Shown: positions 7,929-62,646 of the stretch, in pieces
Layout: each line of letters opens with the position of its first letter
Numbering within the stretch: position 1 is the stretch's first letter
Origin: Microvirga sp.
GTDB taxonomy: Bacteria > Pseudomonadota > Alphaproteobacteria > Rhizobiales > Beijerinckiaceae
DNA: 64,000 nucleotides
Reading direction: 5' to 3'
Assembly (NCBI RefSeq): GCF_014699075.1
Contig: NZ_JACXAB010000001.1
Location: 434,001-498,000 of the forward strand
Notes under the pieces: model-generated
What the model was told of the DNA's origin: nothing
Seen by the model: the letters and a program-made list of their open reading frames with translations, nothing else
The model's database searches: none
Translations under genes and position numbers: made by a program

Positions 7929-8429
7929 ATGGCCACGTTTGCCATCAGCCCTGCCCTCTGTCCCCTCGGTCCCGTGTCCCACCAGCAACCCATAGGCGTC
8001 GTTCTCCTGGTCGAAGACGAACCGCTGGTGCGGCTCGTCACGGCCGACATCCTGCTGGAGGCGAACTTCCGCGTCATCGAGGCCGGTGACGCCGAGGAGG
8101 CCCTGCGCGTGCTGAAAGCCGAGGTTGCCGTGGATGTCCTGCTCTCTGACGTGGAGATGCCGCCCGGCATGAACGGCTACGAACTGGTAGGCCACGTGCA
8201 CCGGGACTGGCCCGGGGTGGAAATCATCGTCTCCTCAGGCCGCGAGTGGCCAAAGGAGGAAGATCTGCCGCCGGGAGCGGTCTTTCTCGCCAAGCCCTAT
8301 CTGAATGCCACGCTCCTGTCCTACGTCCAGGCCGCGGCCAGGAAGGCCCAGGAGGCGCGCCGGCTCAGGCGTGAGGCTGGCGCAGCAGGCGGTACTGCTC
8401 CGGCCGAGGACATCTCCAAGACGGCCTGA
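7929..8429 (+). CDS. Stand-alone response regulator receiver protein
   Basis: A 166-residue protein with a receiver domain at about residues 23-145: LLVEDEPLVRL, phosphoacceptor Asp in LLSDVEMPPG, switch Ser in VSSGRE and Lys in LAKPY. A charged Ala/Arg-rich tail of about 30 residues follows. I chose the ATG at 7929 because the preceding in-frame sequence is low-complexity and runs into the divergent gene. It is divergent from the pseudo-receiver at 7414 with a 119-base shared region and ends at a strong terminator. It is clearly a paralogue of the three minus-strand receivers. Confidence 0.83.
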   Translation: MATFAISPALCPLGPVSHQQPIGVVLLVEDEPLVRLVTADILLEANFRVIEAGDAEEALRVLKAEVAVDVLLSDVEMPPGMNGYELVGHVHRDWPGVEIIVSSGREWPKEEDLPPGAVFLAKPYLNATLLSYVQAAARKAQEARRLRREAGAAGGTAPAEDISKTA

Positions 8430-49118: not shown

Positions 49119-49535
49119 TCAGCCTCTCATGAGGTCAATTGTTGCGGAGATCATGGCTCTCGCCTGCTTCATCATCTGCAGGTTGGCCTGATAGGATCGA
49201 TTGGCCTCACGCATGTCGGCCATTTCAATCAGCATGTTCACGTTCGGCTTCTTGACCATCCCGTTCTCGTCGGCGGCCGGGTTGCCGGGGTCATATTCTA
49301 CCGGGAAAGGTGCCTCGTCCTGTCCGACATCCTTCACTGATACCGAAGCAGCACCGAGTGTTCGCTCAAGCTCGGAGCGGAAGGTGATGGTTTTGCGGGC
49401 ATAGGGATCGGAGCCCGGAGTTCGACCGGTCGAGTTCGCGTTGGCGATGTTCTCCGATACCACACGCAGACGCGCCGACTGCGCCTCCAGGCCGGCGCTG
49501 GACAGTTTGCCGGAAGCAATCAACGGATCGATCAT
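49119..49535 (-). CDS. flgC: FlgC, proximal rod protein
   Basis: A 138-residue rod protein. N-terminal [20 protein letters not shown] with [24 protein letters not shown] and C-terminal [26 protein letters not shown] are diagnostic. It overlaps flgB by four bases and lies one base from fliE. Confidence 0.95.
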
Positions 49536-49921
49536 GACGGGGTCCTCACGCTGGTCAGCAGCATTCTGTGGAATGACTTGACGATGGTCGTGTTCAGGGT
49601 GTGCTGGCGATTGACCTCGCCTGCCTTGATGAGCTCCTGCTCAAGGCTTACGGAGTTCTTCGAATAGACCGTGTCCCAGCTCTCAGATTTCTTGACCTTC
49701 GTGGCTTCGGTGCGCGAAGGAGAAATCCCGATATGTCCGTTGTTCGTCGCCGCCATAACCAGCTTCGTCTTGTCCAAGACGTCAGCAAAAGGCTCGACAT
49801 CGCGGGCGTGATAGCCGGGAGTATTGGCATTGGCGACATTGCCGGAAATCGTCGTCTGGCGAGCCGCAAGCCACTGAGACTGTCGCGATGCCAGATCGAA
49901 CAGATAGACAGGTGCCGTCAC
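49532..49921 (-). CDS. flgB: FlgB, proximal rod protein
   Basis: A 129-residue rod protein. The N-terminal region [20 protein letters not shown] with [20 protein letters not shown] is the FlgB signature. It is the first gene of the large flgB-flgC-fliE-flgG-flgA-flgI-motE-flgH-fliL-fliP operon. A copy of the flagellar-locus motif lies 43 bases upstream. Confidence 0.95.
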
Positions 49922-49963
49922 AGGAATCTCCGAGCAAACATGGTAAAGAGGGATTTAAGCCTC

Positions 49964-49981: not shown

Positions 49982-50310
49982 ACTTGGGCTCTTCAGAGGC
50001 CGGGAGGTTGGCTATGGCCAAGCAACGTCTTCAGAGGTTCACTCTGGCCTACATATGCGTTGCTGATTTTCGATGGACTTTGTGCAACTCTATTCCATAT
50101 TTGTCGAAACGAAACCACGTTACGACAGCCCTCTGAGCGATACCATGTCGCAACCGAATCAGTTGCTTTTCAGCCAGCTATCCTCATGAAGAGCGCGGTT
50201 GTCGAAACAGTGTCCCATGATGGGTGATCCAGTCGAGGCTACCGATTTGCGCGACCAATTGCCAATCGGTTAAAAACCTGCAAGCAACGCAGCTCTTGGG
50301 TTGGGGGGTT
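49982..50310. other. Intergenic region between flgB and the FixL-like kinase
   Basis: No coding frame with a convincing ribosome binding site is seen. The stretch should hold the kinase promoter on the plus strand. I see no FNR/FixK-type dyad (TTGAT-N4-ATCAA). A GGGGGG run ends just before the kinase ATG. Confidence 0.6.
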
Positions 50311-53049
50311 ATGACTCACATATCTGCGTTAACGGGCATCGTGAATGGGCCCGCGGTTCACGCGAGCCCTGATCCTGCCCGCGTTCTCGACGGGGTCACC
50401 GACTTTGCTTTGATCACGCTCGACCATGTCGGAAATATTATATCGTGGAATGTTGGAGCAGAGCGTATTTTTGGCTGGCGATCAGATGAGATATTGAACC
50501 GCCACTTCTCTCTTCTCTACTCTTCAGATGCTCAGCTTCGCGAAAAGCCCCTTCAAGATCTCAACACGGCAGCCATGTCCGGACACTCCGGCGATCAGAT
50601 ACGCTGCAGAACGAAAGACGGCATTCATATTCTGTGCCGGGTGACCCTTGATGCAATCAGCCCTATGGCAGGCGCAGATTGCAGCTTTGTTTTGACGGCT
50701 CGGGACATCAGCCGCTTCATGGCTGCGGAAGCGGCCCTGAAAACCCAGGAGGAGCGCTACCGGGCTCTCATCGAAGCAAGTTCGGCAATGGTCTGGCGTG
50801 CAGACGCTAGCGGGATGATCGTTGACGGGTCGCTGAGTTGGGAGGCCTCTCCCTCTACATCGCCGGAGAATGGCGGAGACTATGCCTGGCTGGATGCCGT
50901 TCATCCTGAAGATCGGGAGCGCGTGACCGCAGCGTGGCTGGAAACGCTGGCTTCGGAGAAAGCAGGCACTGACGAATATAGGGTGCTTGCGCCTGACGGC
51001 GAATACCGCTGGGTCCTGACGAGAGCCGTTCCTCTTCACGACGCAGATGGAGTGGTTCAGGAATGGATTGGAACTGTCACGGACATCCATGAGCAGAAGC
51101 TGGCCGCTGAACGGCTGCGCCGCAGCGAAGAGCAGTATCGCGCCCTGATTGAAGCCGGGTCCGCCATCGTCTGGCGCGCGGCGACAGATGGAGCAATCAC
51201 CAAGGTATGGGGGTGGGAAACCTTCAGCGGCCAGTCCAATGAGAACTATACGGGCTTCGGGTTCCTCAACACCGTCCATCCGGACGACCGGGCAAAGCTT
51301 CTTACCCAGTGGGAAGGTATCCGCACGGCGGAAGAGCCGGGGATGCTTGAGTACCGCGTCCGCCGCCTCGATGGCAAATACCGCTGGATGCTTGCTCGGG
51401 CAGTTCCATTGTTGAATGAGGACGGCCAAGTTCAGGAATGGGTTGGCACCGTCACGGACATCCACGATCAGCGTCGGGCCGAGATAAGACTACGCAGCAG
51501 CGAAGAGAGGTTGCGCCTGGCCATCGAGACGACGGCCCTCGGCATTTGGGATCAGGATCTTATCACCGGCCGACGTCAATGGATGCCCGAGGCGCGGCAG
51601 ATCCTTGGCTTGGCACCGGATGTGACCATCACACGCGAGGCCATCCTTGATTGCGTTCACCCCGATGATCGCAATCGAATGGCGATGACCTTCTATGACG
51701 ACCAGCCCGGCAGCGACCTGACCTATAGCGGCAGCTTCAGGATCATTCGCGCCGATACGGGCGAGGAGCGCTGGGTTACGGCTATCGGCCGCACCTTGGT
51801 TGATGATGACGGGCGGCCCATCCGCAAAATCGGAACGGTTCAGGACATCACAGAGCGCAAGCTGGCCGAGAATGCCCTGCGGTCGAGCGAAGAGCGCCTG
51901 CGGACCAGAGAGGCTCATCTCAGGTCCATTCTCGAGACCGTTCCCGACGCCATGGTTGTGGCTGATGAGAGCGGCATTATCCGGTCGTTCAGCGCGACAG
52001 CCGTGAACATGTTCGGCTATCAGCCCGAGGAGGTCATCGGCACGAACGTCAAGTTCCTGATGCCTCTGCCTTACCGCGAGCAGCATGATGGTTATATCCG
52101 CCGCTATCGCGAGACAGGAGAACGGCGGATCATCGGAAGCGGGCGCGTGGTGGTTGCTCAGCGCAAAGACGGCTCGACCTTCCCGATGGAGGTTCAGGTC
52201 GGTGAGATGGAATCGGACGGGGAGCGCTTCTTCACCGCGTTCATTCGTGATCTGACGGAGCGCCAGCGCACCGAAACGCGCATGCAGGAATTGCAAGCCG
52301 AACTTGCCTACATGTCCCGTTTCACCGCCTTGGGAGAGATGGGATCGACGCTGGCCCATGAGATCAACCAACCTCTGACAGCCATCACAAGTTACCTGAA
52401 GGGCTGTGGCCTCATTCTGAGCGATGTGGAAGGCGACAAGATCTCTCTAGTCCGTCATGCTGTGAACGAGGCTGCCGAAGAAGCTTTGCGCGCCGGAGAA
52501 GTCATCCGGCAGTTGCGGGAGTTCGTGGCCAGGGGAGGCAGCGAGCACCAGATCGAAGGGCTTCAGCGTCTGGTGGAAGAGGCCAGCGCCTTGGCCCTTG
52601 TGGGCGCAAAGGAAAAGGACGTGAAGGTCGAATACGACTTTCCGTCCGACAATCCACTGGTGTTCGTCAATCGTGTTCAGATCCAGCAGGTTCTGCTCAA
52701 CCTGATCCGCAACGCCATCGAGGCGATGCAGGAATCGGACCTTCGTGAGTTGGTGATCAGGGCGAAGCCTGTGCCGTTCGAGTCAACGGTCCAGGTCAGC
52801 GTTCAGGACACCGGATCCGGGATTGCCCCAGAGGTCTTGAAGAACCTTTTCAAGCCATTTACCACCACGAAGCGCAGCGGCATGGGCGTGGGGCTCTCAA
52901 TCAGCCGGACGATCGTGGAGTCCCATGGCGGAAAAATCTGGGCCGAGTCGCTTCCCGGTGAAGGCACCACCTTTCATTTTACTCTGAGAACTGTCGACAA
53001 GGAGGACATGGCCAGTGTCGAACACGCCGATCGTGTATGTGGTGGATGA
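50311..53049 (+). CDS. FixL-like multi-PAS sensor histidine kinase with a heme-type PAS domain
   Basis: A 912-residue soluble kinase from the ATG at 50311; the in-frame extension upstream is poorly supported. Five PAS/PAC modules lie at about residues 25-145, 148-270, 274-398, 400-530 and 535-655, and the second and third are near-duplicates. The fifth matches FixL best: the heme-ligating His is kept ([10 protein letters not shown], His592) and so is the distal Arg (IIGSGRVV, Arg612), which suggests oxygen sensing. A HisKA H-box ([16 protein letters not shown], His683) and an HATPase domain ([10 protein letters not shown] near 795) follow. No membrane helix is seen. Its 3' end overlaps the FixJ gene by 35 bases. 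Confidence 0.88.
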
Positions 53050-53635
53050 TGATGTCGGAGTGCGAAAGGCCCTCTCCTTCCTGCTGGTGTCCGCTGGCCT
53101 GAACGTTCGCCTGTATGAGTCCGCCAAAGCCTTTCTCGACGAGGTCAGCGATCCCGGACAATGCTGCATTGTCACGGACGTGCGGATGCCCGGCATCGAC
53201 GGCCTAGAGTTTATTCGGCGCCTCAATGCACGCGGGCTGAATGTTCCTGTTGTCGTCATGACTGGCCATGCGGATATCCCCCTCGCCGTGGAAGCCATGA
53301 AGACCGGAGCTATCGACTTTCTCGAAAAACCTTTCCGGGAAGACCGCTTCCTGGAGGTGGTCCGCTTTGCGCTGGTCTGCGACGAGAAGAGCGTTCGCCG
53401 GAACCAGGAACTCCTCAGAACGCAGGCACGGCTGCAATCTCTATCGCAGCGGGAGCGGCAGGTGCTGGACGGTTTGGTTGCCGGCAAGGCCAACAAGATG
53501 ATTGCTCACGAGTTGAACATCAGCATCCGGACTGTCGAGATTCATCGTTCAAATGTCATGGCGAAGATGGAAGCCAAGAGTCTGTCTGAACTGATCCGTA
53601 TGGCCCTGTTCCTGGAGGTCGCGACAGGGATCTAG
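53015..53635 (+). CDS. FixJ-like response regulator
   Basis: A 206-residue response regulator starting with GTG at 53015 after AAGGAGG. The receiver has VVDDDVGVR, the phosphoacceptor Asp55 in [12 protein letters not shown], Thr in VVMTGHADI and Lys in LEKPFRED. The C-terminal LuxR-type helix-turn-helix ([39 protein letters not shown]) binds DNA. The gene overlaps the kinase end by 35 bases, so the pair is clearly a two-component system. Rhizobial FixJ activates genes at low oxygen; here the targets are unknown. Confidence 0.92.
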
Positions 53636-53815: not shown

Positions 53816-56572
53816 ATGGCCGATGTCAGACAAATCCTTCCGACGCCTCGAGATCATGGCGGCGATTCCCTTCAGGAAGAGACCGGCATCCGGCAATATA
53901 TTGTCTCGAACGAGAACCGCTGGTCGAGAGCCACCCTCGAATTTAGAGATCTTTCTCAGGATGCCTGGTGTGAGCTGGCTTTTCAGATTTGCTGGCACCC
54001 TGAAGAGAAAAGCCGAACAGCGCATGATTTTGCGGTCATCGGGATCGACTTCCTGACAGAGGACGGGTCGAGCATCGACTTCGCCAATGTTCCGGGCTTA
54101 ACCAGAGCTCAGATTGACCCTCAGAGCTGCCACATTGCCGGACCTGACTACTATGACCCAAGCAGCGACCTGACGCATTCGGCAAGGGTTCACTGCACCT
54201 TTCTGCTTCCTTCTCCAACGAAACACATCTCGGTGAACGTCCGCAGTTGGCGCAACTCCCATCCGTTCACGATTCTCGATCCGAAGCTCCTGCAGGTTGT
54301 CCAACCTACAGGTGATGATGTTCAAGTCGATTCAGCCCGACCGGTTCCTTCTCCAACCCCGAATGACCCTCGCCGTTCTTGGATCCGGCTGAAGACTGAA
54401 CCAACATGGCTGACCTACGGAGTTGTTCCAGCCAAGACACTTTTCGTCCGTGGCCAGTTGATCAACCAGAGTGGAAGCGCCGAGGGTGCCTTGGCCCGTG
54501 TGGTCTTTCGCAACAGGAGCGGAGAAATCGTCGCGTCGCAGGACGATCTGCCGACCTCGCCTATCGTCGGCGCATACATTGATATTCCGGTCAACCGGCA
54601 GACGAGGCGCTTCACGCTTGAGCTCAGCCCGCCGGATCAGGCAGAAACGGTGGATCTTGGTTTTCAGGTCTGGCGCGATGAGGCGCTGATCAGTCTTGTG
54701 ACACCCCTCGAGACATCATTAGACGATGATCTTCTGCTTGAAAGCATCGTCGGCGAAGAGATCCTAGACTCCTCTGCTGTTGCCGGCGAGATCTTCAGAC
54801 GGCTTCGTGCCGCCCCTAGCTCTAGAGCTATGATCGAAGATACCGACACTATTGACCGTCTGATCGATCACCGGACCCTAGCAGCGGCTCCAACCATACA
54901 AGACAAGCTACAGGCGGTTCAGCAAGGTCAGTCGAGGGCCTTTGTCGGAAGCCAGCTTACTCTTGGCAGCTTTCCGGCGTGGTCGCTGCCTTCAGCACTG
55001 GACTGGACGGAAGATCCTTACCAGTCACCTGCATGGCGCATGGAATATCAGTCCTTGTCCTGGCTCCTGGACCTAATTGGCCACCAGGGAGCGAGCGGAG
55101 TAAACAAGGCCGTGGACTTGGCCGCTTCTTGGTCCCACGAAAATCCATCAGGCCGTCCTAAAGATCCACTTAGTGCCTATCCTGCGTCCGCTGCCACACG
55201 CACAGAGGTTCTGCTTCGGCTGCTCGCGGCTACGACTGCGCACAAGAACAAGCCGATCGGAAAGCTGCGCATGCTCGTTGCGGAGGTCATTCAGCATGGC
55301 TTCGCACTTGCCGAGATTCTGAGCCAGAACATCTTCGTGCATTCCATGCTGCAGGTTCGTGTCGCCTGCGCCCTTTTGAGCGCCTCGACCGGCCTCTCAA
55401 ATTTCCCTCTCTCTTTGTACTGGAAATCAGTAGCCCTTGCTCAACTTCGCAACGGGTTCGACCATCTTCTCGGCCCTAACGGATCATCGAATGAGCAGTC
55501 CCAGCACTACCGATTGGAACTCATCTCAATTGGCATGATCTTGGCGCAGCACCTTAAGGATTACCATGAAGCTGAGGACCTCCGGCAGCTTCTTGCTGAT
55601 CGTCTGAAGGACAGTTTGAAATCCGTTGTTGCGGCGACAAACCCAGCAGGTATGCTTGCTCCATTTGGAGACTCTCCGAGCACGCTCCATCACGCCTCCT
55701 GGCTCCGGCGCCTCATCTCTGGATATGGACGGCATCTCCTGTCGGATCAGGCGCTCGCGGAAGAGTTAGCGTACCCTTTGGGCCCAAGGCTCCACGCATC
55801 AGATCACGCCGGGCTTATCACCATTCGAAACTACATGCAGAAACCGGATTGGAGCCATCTTTGCGCTTCGATCAACGAGCAGAAGCATGACAACGGACAT
55901 CACGATTGCACCTCCTTTGTTTACTCCGCTCGCGGAGTAAAGTGGATCACAGATCCGGGTGGATCAGGATCTATGGAGGCGGGTCCTGTGCGTCAGTACC
56001 TACTCTCGTCACGCGCCCACAATGTCGCCATCCCGAACTCTCGCGAGCAGACTGCGGGTCTTGGTTGGCTTGAAGTAACACGCTCCCTAGACAACGCCCA
56101 TGCAGTTCGGATCGGCACAAACGTGCATGGTCCTTGCTACAGGCATTCACGCATCTTTGTGTGCATGGATGACATGAACGCTGTCGCTATCCTTGATCAC
56201 TTTCGATCCTCGCAAACCTCTAATAGCTTTGAAGCCCACCTTCATATTGAAGACAATATCGCTGTTGCCCTTGCCAAGAGTAATCTCGCCATCGCTTTTC
56301 ACAAGCGGGATAGGCTGCGCATTGTTCCTCATTCTTTTGCAGGACAGTTTACCGGCTTCAAGGTTCAGAATGGGTCTCCCGGCCGGGCTGGATCCATGCA
56401 GGGCTATCTCTCAAATGGCACTGGCGGCCTCAAGCCTGCCAATGTGCTGAGCTACGGTTTTAACGGTGCATCAGACATCTGCGGCGGCGTGATCCTTGCA
56501 ATAACGGAAGAAAGCTTGAGGAGCCTGATGAACGTCATTGCCTCGCAGCAGGTACAGGACCTGCTGGTCTAG
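53816..56572 (+). CDS. Heparinase II/III-like polysaccharide lyase-family protein
   Basis: A 918-residue protein from the ATG at 53816; an in-frame TTG at 53699 would add 39 residues with poor codon use. The last 350 residues match the heparinase II/III C-terminal beta domain: HDNGHHDCTSFVYSARGVKW, DPGGSGSMEAGPVRQYLLSS and RAHNVAIPNSREQ. An alpha-helical toroid domain (about residues 380-640) precedes it, and the first 330 residues are a beta-rich region I cannot name. No signal peptide is evident, which is odd for a polysaccharide lyase. The codon and base composition is AT-richer than its neighbours, so transfer is possible. Substrate unknown. Confidence 0.7.
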   Translation: MADVRQILPTPRDHGGDSLQEETGIRQYIVSNENRWSRATLEFRDLSQDAWCELAFQICWHPEEKSRTAHDFAVIGIDFLTEDGSSIDFANVPGLTRAQIDPQSCHIAGPDYYDPSSDLTHSARVHCTFLLPSPTKHISVNVRSWRNSHPFTILDPKLLQVVQPTGDDVQVDSARPVPSPTPNDPRRSWIRLKTEPTWLTYGVVPAKTLFVRGQLINQSGSAEGALARVVFRNRSGEIVASQDDLPTSPIVGAYIDIPVNRQTRRFTLELSPPDQAETVDLGFQVWRDEALISLVTPLETSLDDDLLLESIVGEEILDSSAVAGEIFRRLRAAPSSRAMIEDTDTIDRLIDHRTLAAAPTIQDKLQAVQQGQSRAFVGSQLTLGSFPAWSLPSALDWTEDPYQSPAWRMEYQSLSWLLDLIGHQGASGVNKAVDLAASWSHENPSGRPKDPLSAYPASAATRTEVLLRLLAATTAHKNKPIGKLRMLVAEVIQHGFALAEILSQNIFVHSMLQVRVACALLSASTGLSNFPLSLYWKSVALAQLRNGFDHLLGPNGSSNEQSQHYRLELISIGMILAQHLKDYHEAEDLRQLLADRLKDSLKSVVAATNPAGMLAPFGDSPSTLHHASWLRRLISGYGRHLLSDQALAEELAYPLGPRLHASDHAGLITIRNYMQKPDWSHLCASINEQKHDNGHHDCTSFVYSARGVKWITDPGGSGSMEAGPVRQYLLSSRAHNVAIPNSREQTAGLGWLEVTRSLDNAHAVRIGTNVHGPCYRHSRIFVCMDDMNAVAILDHFRSSQTSNSFEAHLHIEDNIAVALAKSNLAIAFHKRDRLRIVPHSFAGQFTGFKVQNGSPGRAGSMQGYLSNGTGGLKPANVLSYGFNGASDICGGVILAITEESLRSLMNVIASQQVQDLLV

Positions 56573-56666: not shown

Positions 56667-57368
56667 CTAGTTGAACAGTGCGTCAATGTCGTCCTGAGAT
56701 GTCACGCCATTGTCGTAGGCCAAAGCGGGTCCATTCAGAAGCGCCTTCTCTCCCTGACGCTTCGGATCGTCGATGGTCTCGACATCCTTGAAGCTTTCCA
56801 TGCCACCCCAGATTTCCATCATGTGATGAACACGTTCTTCAACGAACCTCATCGCGCCGACCACCTTACTGATGCGCTGGCCGGTAATGTCCTGGAAGTT
56901 GCAGGCCTCGAAGATATTGATCACGTGATCGAGGATCTCACGGGCGATGTCCTGGTCACTTCCAGCCAGTCTGGACGAGAGATTGCTGGAGAGATCGTCA
57001 ATTCTTTCCGCCGCTGCCAGAATGGAATTGGTAGCTGTTTCCGTTCCGGTGACGATGGCGCCAAGCTCGTCCGTGACTCGGGTGATCTCTTTTCCCTGAG
57101 CACCGGCATATCGAAGCGTGGCGATTTCTATCTTCGTGCGCTCGATCGCCTGATAGATCGAATCGAGCTCTGCCTTCAGGCGAAGAGCCTCCTGCATGTC
57201 ACGGCGGTGCTCCTCCAGCAGAGAGGTCGAGATGTCCTTTGCAGGAACGATCGACTCCTTGATGGCGGCCAGGAGCCCTATAACTTCGGAGTGGCGCTCC
57301 AGAACTCCTTCGTCCTGCGAAACAACGCCCAGATTCGCCTCGATACGATAGCTTTTTCTATGGATCAT
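56667..57368 (-). CDS. cheZ: CheZ-type CheY-P phosphatase
   Basis: A 233-residue helical protein. The phosphatase signature NFQDITGQRISKVVGAMRFVE carries the catalytic Asp and Gln (FQDxTGQ). The C-terminus SQDDIDALFN is a CheY-P-binding peptide, similar to the FliM N-terminal peptide. It dephosphorylates CheY-P. I chose the ATG at 57368, 19 bases after the cheY stop; an in-frame TTG at 57398 lies inside cheY. It is the last gene of the cheA-cheW-cheY-cheZ operon. Confidence 0.88.
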   Translation of the reverse strand: MIHRKSYRIEANLGVVSQDEGVLERHSEVIGLLAAIKESIVPAKDISTSLLEEHRRDMQEALRLKAELDSIYQAIERTKIEIATLRYAGAQGKEITRVTDELGAIVTGTETATNSILAAAERIDDLSSNLSSRLAGSDQDIAREILDHVINIFEACNFQDITGQRISKVVGAMRFVEERVHHMMEIWGGMESFKDVETIDDPKRQGEKALLNGPALAYDNGVTSQDDIDALFN

Positions 57369-57387
57369 GATCTCGCTCTCGTTCCGC

Positions 57388-57771
57388 TTACGCACCAAAG
57401 ACAGCGCTGATTTTTGACCGCAGGGTATCGGCGTTGAAGGGCTTGACGATGTAGTTGTTGACGCCCGCCTGCTTGGCCGCGACCACGTTCTCGGTCTTGG
57501 CCTCGGCGGTGATCATGATGAAGGGAAGGCTGCCCAGCTCCGCGTCGGCGCGCACCTGCTGCAGCAGCTCGAAGCCGGTCATGGGCGCCATGTTCCAGTC
57601 GGAGATCACCAGCCCGTACTTCTTCTCCTTGAGCTTGCCCAGAGCCTCCGAGCCGTCCTTCGCCTCGTCGACGTCGTTGAAGCCGATCTGCTTCAGCAGG
57701 TTGCGGATAATGCGCAGCATCGTCTGATAGTCGTCAACGATGAGAACAGGGGTGGATAGATCAAGGCTCAC
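57388..57771 (-). CDS. cheY: CheY-type response regulator (second copy)
   Basis: A 127-residue CheY. Acidic pocket IVDDYQTMLR, phosphoacceptor Asp in LVISDWNMAPMTGFE, Thr in MITAEAKTENVV and Lys in YIVKPFNADT. The YIVKPF and AKTEN segments match motor-switch CheYs closely. It lies between cheW and cheZ, so it is the main candidate for the motor signal. The first CheY copy at 17829 is more divergent. Confidence 0.93.
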   Translation of the reverse strand: MSLDLSTPVLIVDDYQTMLRIIRNLLKQIGFNDVDEAKDGSEALGKLKEKKYGLVISDWNMAPMTGFELLQQVRADAELGSLPFIMITAEAKTENVVAAKQAGVNNYIVKPFNADTLRSKISAVFGA

Positions 57772-61959: not shown

Positions 61960-62646
61960 TTAGGCCGCGATTCCTACGTAGGAATAGCCGATGTACCGCT
62001 TGGCATCGATCGGATCGTAGCCGAGGCGCTGCCGCAGCTTTTTGCGGAGTTTGCTGATGTGCCCCTCGACAACACTGTCTTCGACATCATCGCTGTAGAT
62101 CCCGTAGACCGCGTCGAAGATCTGCTTCTTGGTGAGCCGGTGCCCCTTCTTGCGGACCAGATACTCTAGGATGTGCCTCTCACGGCGTGGGAGAGAAAGG
62201 GGAAGACCATCGATCTCCGGATCACGTCCATCGAAGAAGACCTTCAGCCTGTCGCTGTTGTCCTGGGCCTTCTTTCCCGCGCTTGCGTTCACGCGGCGCC
62301 ACACGGCTTCGGTCCGTGCGAGAATTTCCCGGACATGAACGGGCTTACGGACAACATCATCAAACTTCGCGGTGAAGAGTTCCAGGGTCTCTTCCAGAGA
62401 GCGGACGTCGCTCAAGGCAATGATGGGTGCCTTCGAATAGCGCCGGATGCTTTCGGCGGAATGAACCCGCTCTTCGAAGGTGCCCAGCACGAAGCCCTGA
62501 ACGGCTTCCAAATCGGAGTCGGAAGCCGTCTCAAGCCAATCGCTGAACTCGTCTGCGTATAAGCCAAGGGAGGATATGCCTTCACGCTTGAAGCTCGCAA
62601 CATATCCGGACGTAACCATCTGCCGGTCATCGACGACGATATACAT
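61960..62646 (-). CDS. ftcR: FtcR/Rem-type flagellar transcriptional regulator
   Basis: A 228-residue OmpR-family regulator that controls flagellar genes in Brucella (FtcR) and Sinorhizobium (Rem). The N-terminal receiver-like domain keeps VVDDRQMV, a Ser in IIALSD and a Lys in VVRKPVHVREIL, but where the phosphoacceptor Asp is expected Gln stands in DLEAVQGF. The C-terminal winged helix (LPRRERHILEYLVRKKGHRLTK; SVVEGHISKLRKKLRQRLG) with IDAKRYIGYSYVG is strongly FtcR-like. A promoter region with TTAA boxes in 10-base phase lies upstream. Confidence 0.92.
   Translation of the reverse strand: MYIVVDDRQMVTSGYVASFKREGISSLGLYADEFSDWLETASDSDLEAVQGFVLGTFEERVHSAESIRRYSKAPIIALSDVRSLEETLELFTAKFDDVVRKPVHVREILARTEAVWRRVNASAGKKAQDNSDRLKVFFDGRDPEIDGLPLSLPRRERHILEYLVRKKGHRLTKKQIFDAVYGIYSDDVEDSVVEGHISKLRKKLRQRLGYDPIDAKRYIGYSYVGIAA

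Follow-up and report, generated by a model that had tools for sequence, protein, structure and literature searches.

A FixL-FixJ paralogue pair within the flagellar-chemotaxis locus of Microvirga, a candidate oxygen-responsive regulator of motility

A FixL-type histidine kinase and a FixJ-type response regulator are encoded between flgB and cheZ in a 64,000-nucleotide stretch of a Microvirga sp. genome (GCF_014699075.1, contig NZ_JACXAB010000001.1, positions 434,001 to 498,000; hereafter the window). FixLJ is the textbook system of oxygen control in nitrogen fixation and respiration, and the subject here is the possible role of such a pair in a motility locus. The two genes share 35 bp of overlap. 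The kinase open reading frame (ORF) is open from a GTG at 50224, but the ATG at 50311 is its likely start, because the stretch just 5' of it is conserved yet shows single-base length differences among 17 aligned flgB-fixL intergenic regions and is hence not in-frame coding. An earlier note on this DNA had the coordinates and frames of both genes right, and the two flanks it named are confirmed, but it overlooked a heparinase-II/III-like gene that lies between fixJ and cheZ (Table 1).

Motility genes surround the pair. To its left, flgB, flgC, fliE, flgG, flgA, flgI, a gene that we take to be MotE-like (its matches to MgtE_N and FliG_M are weak), flgH and fliP lie on the minus strand; farther left are flagellin-like, cheB, flhA, flgL-like, flgK, flgE-like, fliI, fliG, flhB, fliK, motB and fliF genes. 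To the right of the heparinase-like gene, cheZ, cheY, cheW and cheA also lie on the minus strand. Judged from a scan of part of the ORFs, this motility block spans nearly 50 kb (about 14-61 kb of the window) and encloses the pair. Beyond cheA lies a gene for a winged-helix regulator whose receiver and CtrA-family matches are weak; it is kept with the che genes in relatives and is reminiscent of FtcR/Rem-type flagellar regulators.

Any reading of the flagellar pair has to take account of the genome's further FixL and FixJ copies. Five places encode a FixL-type PAS5-kinase (61-100% identity) and three a FixJ (64-100%): in addition to the window's pair there are two further FixL-FixJ pairs, on contigs C38 and C23, and, on C62 and C24, two FixL-like kinases that lack a FixJ. 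Contig C38 brings together fixL, fixJ, a receiver-only protein gene, a Crp-family FixK-like gene and a P-type ATPase gene, with ccoN about 9 kb off, and C23 carries a second fixL-fixJ-receiver set. Relative to the canonical Microvirga pair, the window's FixJ is 64-65% and its PAS5-kinase region 69-70% identical. All ccoN matches of the genome lie on contigs other than the window's. The earlier remark that no nif, fix or cbb3 genes are in sight is accordingly true of ccoN and of any other fixLJ pair among the window ORFs scanned, nif lying outside the search, but does not extend to the genome, where ccoN and the two further pairs sit on other contigs. In the canonical loci examined, a receiver-only protein, possibly a feedback partner, is encoded beside fixJ.

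The kinase has five PAS stretches (TIGR00229), a HisKA domain and a HATPase_c domain. PAS5 matches the solved heme PAS of Sinorhizobium meliloti FixL (1d06, E 3.7e-48) and Bradyrhizobium japonicum FixL, and the kinase core matches FixL chimeras at E up to 1e-88. Kinase and regulator similarities (E 1e-48 to 1e-88 and 1.2e-87, respectively) are far beyond chance. The heme-ligand residues proposed earlier, His592 and Arg612, fall exactly where they were numbered when PAS5 is aligned to the solved FixL PAS, and we take them to be ligand positions 200 and 220 of B. japonicum FixL.

Comparison within the genus separates conserved from altered positions. His592, Ile607, Arg612 and the phospho-acceptor His683 are invariant in 26/26 flagellar-type kinases and Arg598 is present in 25/26; the same heme-His, Arg612-equivalent and phospho-His residues occur in 22/22 canonical FixLs. 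Position 610 is Ser in 24 flagellar-type kinases, Thr in one and Asn in one, versus Ile (19) or Val (3) in canonical FixL; position 616 is Ala versus Gly, and position 628 is Val versus Leu. Residue 628 aligns with what we take to be Leu236 of B. japonicum FixL, presumably part of the distal wall. In total, 23 PAS5-kinase positions separate flagellar-type from canonical kinases in this comparison, which left out the interrupted kinases of L054 (G026) and L059 (G031) and did not include the kinases of G064 and G066 or the locus L136, where no FixL was seen. Residues 610, 616 and 628, placed near the heme pocket by alignment, are fixed or nearly fixed within the flagellar subfamily. PAS5 would be expected to bind heme with shifted affinity, and since the changes lie near the heme, they suggest that the oxygen set point may differ from that of respiratory FixL. 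By alignment, Arg598 and Ile607 correspond to S. meliloti FixL Arg200 and Ile209, which matter for signalling or oxygen binding according to the accessible text of PMC10765370.

The two orphan FixL-like kinases of the genome have no FixJ match within about 20 kb. Both carry many residues of the flagellar-kinase subfamily (e.g. 610, 616, 628 and 678), and a GAF domain is seen by Pfam only in the C62 orphan.

The regulator scores above the curated FixJ cut-off (NF006900, 292.6 bits against 255, E 1.2e-87). Its receiver and LuxR output domains, described earlier as intact, are both present (PF00072 and PF00196), as are Asp11, Asp12, Asp55, Thr83 and Lys105, whose roles in the receiver we assume. 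The recognition helix differs from canonical Microvirga FixJ at positions 171 (Ile versus Pro), 177 (His versus Tyr) and 179 (Ser versus Ala), and the receiver differs at, for example, positions 15, 19, 25 and 50; these differences are fixed in 24/24 flagellar versus 22/22 canonical readable rows. The canonical row G017 was ignored in this comparison, and the correct G017 row was used in the FixJ tree. Because the recognition helix has changed, targets other than fixK are suggested.

The flagellar FixJ, at 88-100% identity to the window's, is encoded in 30 of 48 Microvirga genomes. Other FixJ matches are at most 67% identical, both in a set of 61 genomes and in 298 genomes of the family, and the flagellar type was not seen outside Microvirga in either set. 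A scan of named genomes with PAS1-4 returned 23 loci, 17 of which (L093-L109), all from Microvirga, span residues 1-520 at 65-92% identity; the remaining loci match at 26-49% only. The order FixL, FixJ, heparinase-like gene is kept in 17/17, with flgB out of view in L106 (a short contig) and cheZ out of view in L102.

Linkage to flagellar genes is tight. A flgB match is detected in 42 of the 48 genomes; 29 of these encode the flagellar FixJ, as does one of the six others (G031, whose assembly is fragmented, the contig breaking off beyond fixL). In all 29 genomes that have FixJ and flgB on one contig, the two lie within about 3.2 kb of each other. Loci with FixL, FixJ and heparinase-like genes contiguous (A-type) occur in 22 genomes: a first set of 18, in which 17 have flgB beside FixL and 18 have cheZ, and four more with flgB, cheZ not being in view. 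Loci with FixJ and the heparinase-like gene by flgB, but FixL not between, are termed B-type. In G023, which lacks the pair, flgB and cheZ are about 900 nucleotides (nt) apart.

Phylogeny points to an old duplication. A 62-row FixJ tree joins all 30 flagellar FixJs in a single group (support 100/98), whose stem measures 0.44 changes per site and whose inner branches are short; the canonical rows are not a single group, and one of them, the long-branched G007, adjoins the flagellar one. In a 54-row FixL tree, canonical and other-genus FixLs are separated (100/100) from the flagellar kinases and the two orphans, the orphans grouping with the B-type kinases (98/88). Rooting was by midpoint alone in either tree. 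Over the 16 species that carry both copies, flagellar FixJ averages 93.6% pairwise identity and canonical FixJ 82.0%. In the same comparison FlgI reaches 91.9%, FlgC 91.3%, FlgG 91.0%, CheY 90.8% (15 species) and FlgB 87.1%; values for the block's ten other compared proteins run from 52.9% (heparinase-like) up to that of FlgI, and flagellar FixJ exceeds all nine motility proteins compared. The duplicate looks as if it changed once and was then fixed in a role that matters, whichever role that be.

Table 1. Positions of the genes, domains and DNA elements discussed (window coordinates unless a locus or contig handle is given)
Feature	Position	Strand	Remarks
FixL-type histidine kinase, 912 aa	50311-53049	+	five PAS, HisKA (phospho-acceptor His683), HATPase_c
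PAS5, FixL heme-PAS type, about residues 535-655	51913-52275	+	His592, Arg598, Ile607, Arg612 kept; Ser610, Ala616, Val628 unlike canonical FixL
FixJ-type response regulator, 206 aa	53015-53635	+	receiver (Asp55) and LuxR/GerE output domain
Heparinase-II/III-like gene	53816-56572 (ORF from 53699)	+	start 53816 picked by conservation
flgB	49532-49921	-	divergent from kinase gene; then flgC, fliE, flgG; FlgB above its own cut-off
cheZ	56667-57398	-	PF04344 48.5 bits, cut-off 30.7; nearest chemotaxis flank
Palindrome [GT]TAAA-N6-TTTAC upstream of flgB	49943-49958	-	weighed as flagellar FixJ operator, unsupported
Conserved element directly 5' of fixL start	50278-50310
Winged-helix regulator beyond cheA	61960-62646	-	weak receiver and CtrA-family matches
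fixK-upstream palindrome	L070 around 8223-8235; fixK upstream regions of L118-L134, L136, L092		candidate FixJ site
Second copy of the flgB palindrome	G000:C68:213735-213750 (L139, L160)		at start of chemoreceptor gene
Orphan FixL-like kinases (C62, C24)	L067:6383-8911; L068:8364-10802		no FixJ match within about 20 kb
Receiver-only proteins beside canonical fixJ	L070:9166-9624; L069:5578-5937		examples

The domain make-up, the kept heme-ligand residues, the genus-wide linkage, the single origin in the trees and the conservation of the regulator point to an old FixL-FixJ paralogue pair that is dedicated to the motility locus and would respond to oxygen and serve the motility block; from sequence comparison we put the probability of this reading at roughly 0.6. 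Oxygen-dependent control of motility, the earlier note's proposal, gains from the position of a pair with heme-ligand residues inside the motility block, from its linkage across the genus and from a regulator more constrained than the canonical one, and loses from a fixK palindrome that is absent from the window and a flgB palindrome that does not track FixJ. As we infer them, heme binding, the oxygen response, the target genes and the sign of control would combine as follows. PAS5 would bind heme; as oxygen falls, deoxy heme would release the kinase, which would phosphorylate FixJ and so change the transcription of motility and surface-polysaccharide genes. By analogy, action at low oxygen that favours rather than represses motility is most likely, because Burkholderia fixLJ and Azorhizobium acfR mutants are less motile: a fixLJ deletion in B. 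dolosa (Burkholderia cepacia complex) lowers swimming and motility transcripts, as the accessible text of PMC5234846 reports, and an acfR deletion in A. caulinodans lowers motility and exopolysaccharide, as that of PMC7945327 does.

Candidate DNA sites were sought at canonical and flagellar loci alike. A palindrome around TAAGGGGTTTTCCTTA (full form CCTAAGGGGTTTTCCTTAGG) precedes the assumed start of fixK by 38-67 nt in 20/20 canonical loci and is the likely candidate FixJ site of Microvirga; the 20-site matrix was seeded from those same loci, so the 20/20 is partly by construction and the constant 38-67 nt position is its independent part. The palindrome agrees at 12/16 positions with the S. 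meliloti site given in the accessible text of PMC4999443. Before flgB, a different palindrome, [GT]TAAA-N6-TTTA[AC], is found in 26/30 regions by a FixJ cassette (A-type 22/22, B-type 4/8; the A-type count includes G025, where the contig ends inside fixL, and omits G031, where it ends before flgB) and in 0/8 regions examined from the 12 other flagellated genomes without flagellar FixJ. A flgB promoter core is present in 38/38 regions.

Directly 5' of the fixL start, the element CTGCA..C.ACGCAGC..TGGGTTGGGGG is strongly conserved in the 17 aligned A-type loci. GCAAC-N7-GTTGC and CTGCA-N2-C-N-ACGCAGC, both before fixL, have one exact window copy each, with one- and two-mismatch matches near chance, and neither was seen in the aligned B-type intergenic regions.

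Several observations weigh against a pair that serves the motility genes around it. Linkage is no proof of regulating neighbours. Eight genomes are B-type, so that fixL and fixJ adjoin each other in the window and in 22/30 flagellar-FixJ loci and do not in eight; in 6/6 B-type genomes examined, FixL sits beyond cheA. FixL is interrupted in 2/18 first orthologues (G026 and G031). Twelve or 13 of the 42 flagellated Microvirga lack the flagellar FixJ (in G025 the contig ends inside fixL by flgB), and flagella therefore do not need it. The kinase scores 634.8 bits against the curated rhizobial FixL model NF041777, under its cut-off of 850, although residues 405-895 cover model positions 2-482 of 485. 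No canonical-fixK-like site is found in the window, where the best matrix score is 15.5, compared with 24.1 for the lowest training locus and 21.8 for the best of 20 shuffled windows; flagellar FixJ therefore reads another sequence or acts elsewhere. The published K-box, the 16-bp box and the GTAGTTTCCC box have 0 matches in the window, but the K-box test says little because the canonical C38 locus (L070) lacks that box as well.

The flgB palindrome does not fill this gap. Its exact form, [GT]TAAA-N6-TTTAC, has two copies in the 6.6 Mb genome, one upstream of flgB and one where a methyl-accepting chemotaxis protein (MCP) chemoreceptor gene begins, and matches are fewer than those of a reversed control pattern in the genome's own scan and in 38/48 genomes. 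The MCP copy is kept in at least 10 Microvirga with the flagellar FixJ and in at least two without it (G061, which also lacks a flgB match, and G023), and for this last reason the palindrome was rejected as a flagellar FixJ operator. It also fits a CtrA-like TTAA-N7-TTWAC box, and a CtrA-like regulator appears at least as likely as FixJ to use it. The MCP gene adjoins a gene named by eye as ptsN-like.

The strongest alternative centres on the heparinase-like gene, which carries a Hepar_II_III_C domain (PF07940, 39.2 bits, cut-off 24). The pair might mainly regulate this gene, its place in the motility block reflecting either a swim-or-stick decision or plain linkage, with no direct flagellar control. 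FixJ and the heparinase-like gene occur together in 30/30 loci examined, including the eight without an adjacent FixL, and lie on the same strand with 180 nt between the fixJ stop and the likely heparinase-like start. The product is perhaps a surface polysaccharide enzyme. Sequence search returned no solved relative and no NCBIfam model match, and its predicted structure is of low confidence (mean predicted local distance difference test score, pLDDT, 56.0), with fold matches that include heparinase III and alginate lyases at template modelling scores (TM-scores) of at most about 0.3 and a top match of another kind. The heparinase-like protein evolves fast, however, while FixJ hardly changes, and one such target is no obvious explanation for that constraint. 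Regulation centred on this gene has a real claim, but we think it the less probable account.

A more elaborate form of the motility reading can be proposed tentatively, and we rather doubt it as a whole. A single ancestral FixLJ would have given rise to two insulated oxygen circuits, with the respiratory pair acting via fixK and the motility pair having a retuned heme pocket (Ser for Ile/Val at 610, Ala for Gly at 616, Val for Leu at 628), re-specified DNA recognition, extra input from the orphan FixL-like kinases of its subfamily and its own oxygen set point for flagellar, chemotaxis and surface-polysaccharide expression.

The flagellar FixL or FixJ might instead act on fixK and the oxidase genes as an extra input to the canonical respiratory cascade, its position being historical. 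The pairs remain close (the identities given above) and the output domain is largely shared, but the differences at 171, 177 and 179 and at several receiver positions across 24/24 flagellar rows, together with the 23 differing PAS5-kinase positions, argue against a common task. So does the greater constraint on flagellar FixJ than on canonical FixJ. The flagellar FixJ was also not found in five flgB-less genomes (the fragmented G031 aside), and we think this reading unlikely.

Least probable of all, PAS5 may be no oxygen sensor, either binding heme for another ligand or being structural, while PAS1-4 sense something else, an idea to which the near-pocket changes at 610, 616 and 628 and a B-type kinase (G036) that has diverged after the His lend something, but which the retention of the proximal His, Arg612 and Ile607 in all 26 kinases and of Arg598 in all but one, at positions functionally important in S. 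meliloti FixL for the last two residues (accessible text of PMC10765370), makes improbable.

If the motility assignment is true, the locus would be a clear example from nature of how a two-component system takes on a different job: a duplicate was moved, altered and in the end better conserved than its sister copy. It would then open to direct test what encodes the oxygen set point of FixL and the DNA specificity of FixJ, and whether oxygen sets motility in Microvirga through transcription, beyond chemoreceptors alone. FixLJ itself and an effect of FixLJ on motility are already known; no description of a flagellar-locus FixLJ paralogue with fixed changes in the sensor and the DNA-reading helix was found among titles and abstract openings of the open-licence literature.

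Several known systems frame the pair. AcfR of A. caulinodans is a NarL/FixJ-family REC-LuxR regulator on which full swimming and exopolysaccharide depend, with no oxygen link in the accessible text (PMC7945327). Burkholderia FixLJ, unlike the Microvirga flagellar pair, is a global regulator in a betaproteobacterium. The rhizobial FixL-FixJ systems of S. meliloti and B. japonicum share with the pair the His and Arg of a heme-type PAS, the HisKA/HATPase_c kinase, the receiver-GerE regulator and adjacent overlapping genes. The Microvirga flagellar pair is set apart from these by its five PAS domains, its flagellar-chemotaxis site, its changed heme-near and recognition-helix residues, the lack of a canonical FixJ palindrome in the window and its heparinase-like neighbour. 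Within the same genome, the canonical fixLJ (e.g. that of C38) belongs to the same families but stands beside a FixK-like gene with its fixK palindrome, a P-type ATPase gene and, at a distance, ccoN, whereas the flagellar pair stands among the genes for swimming.

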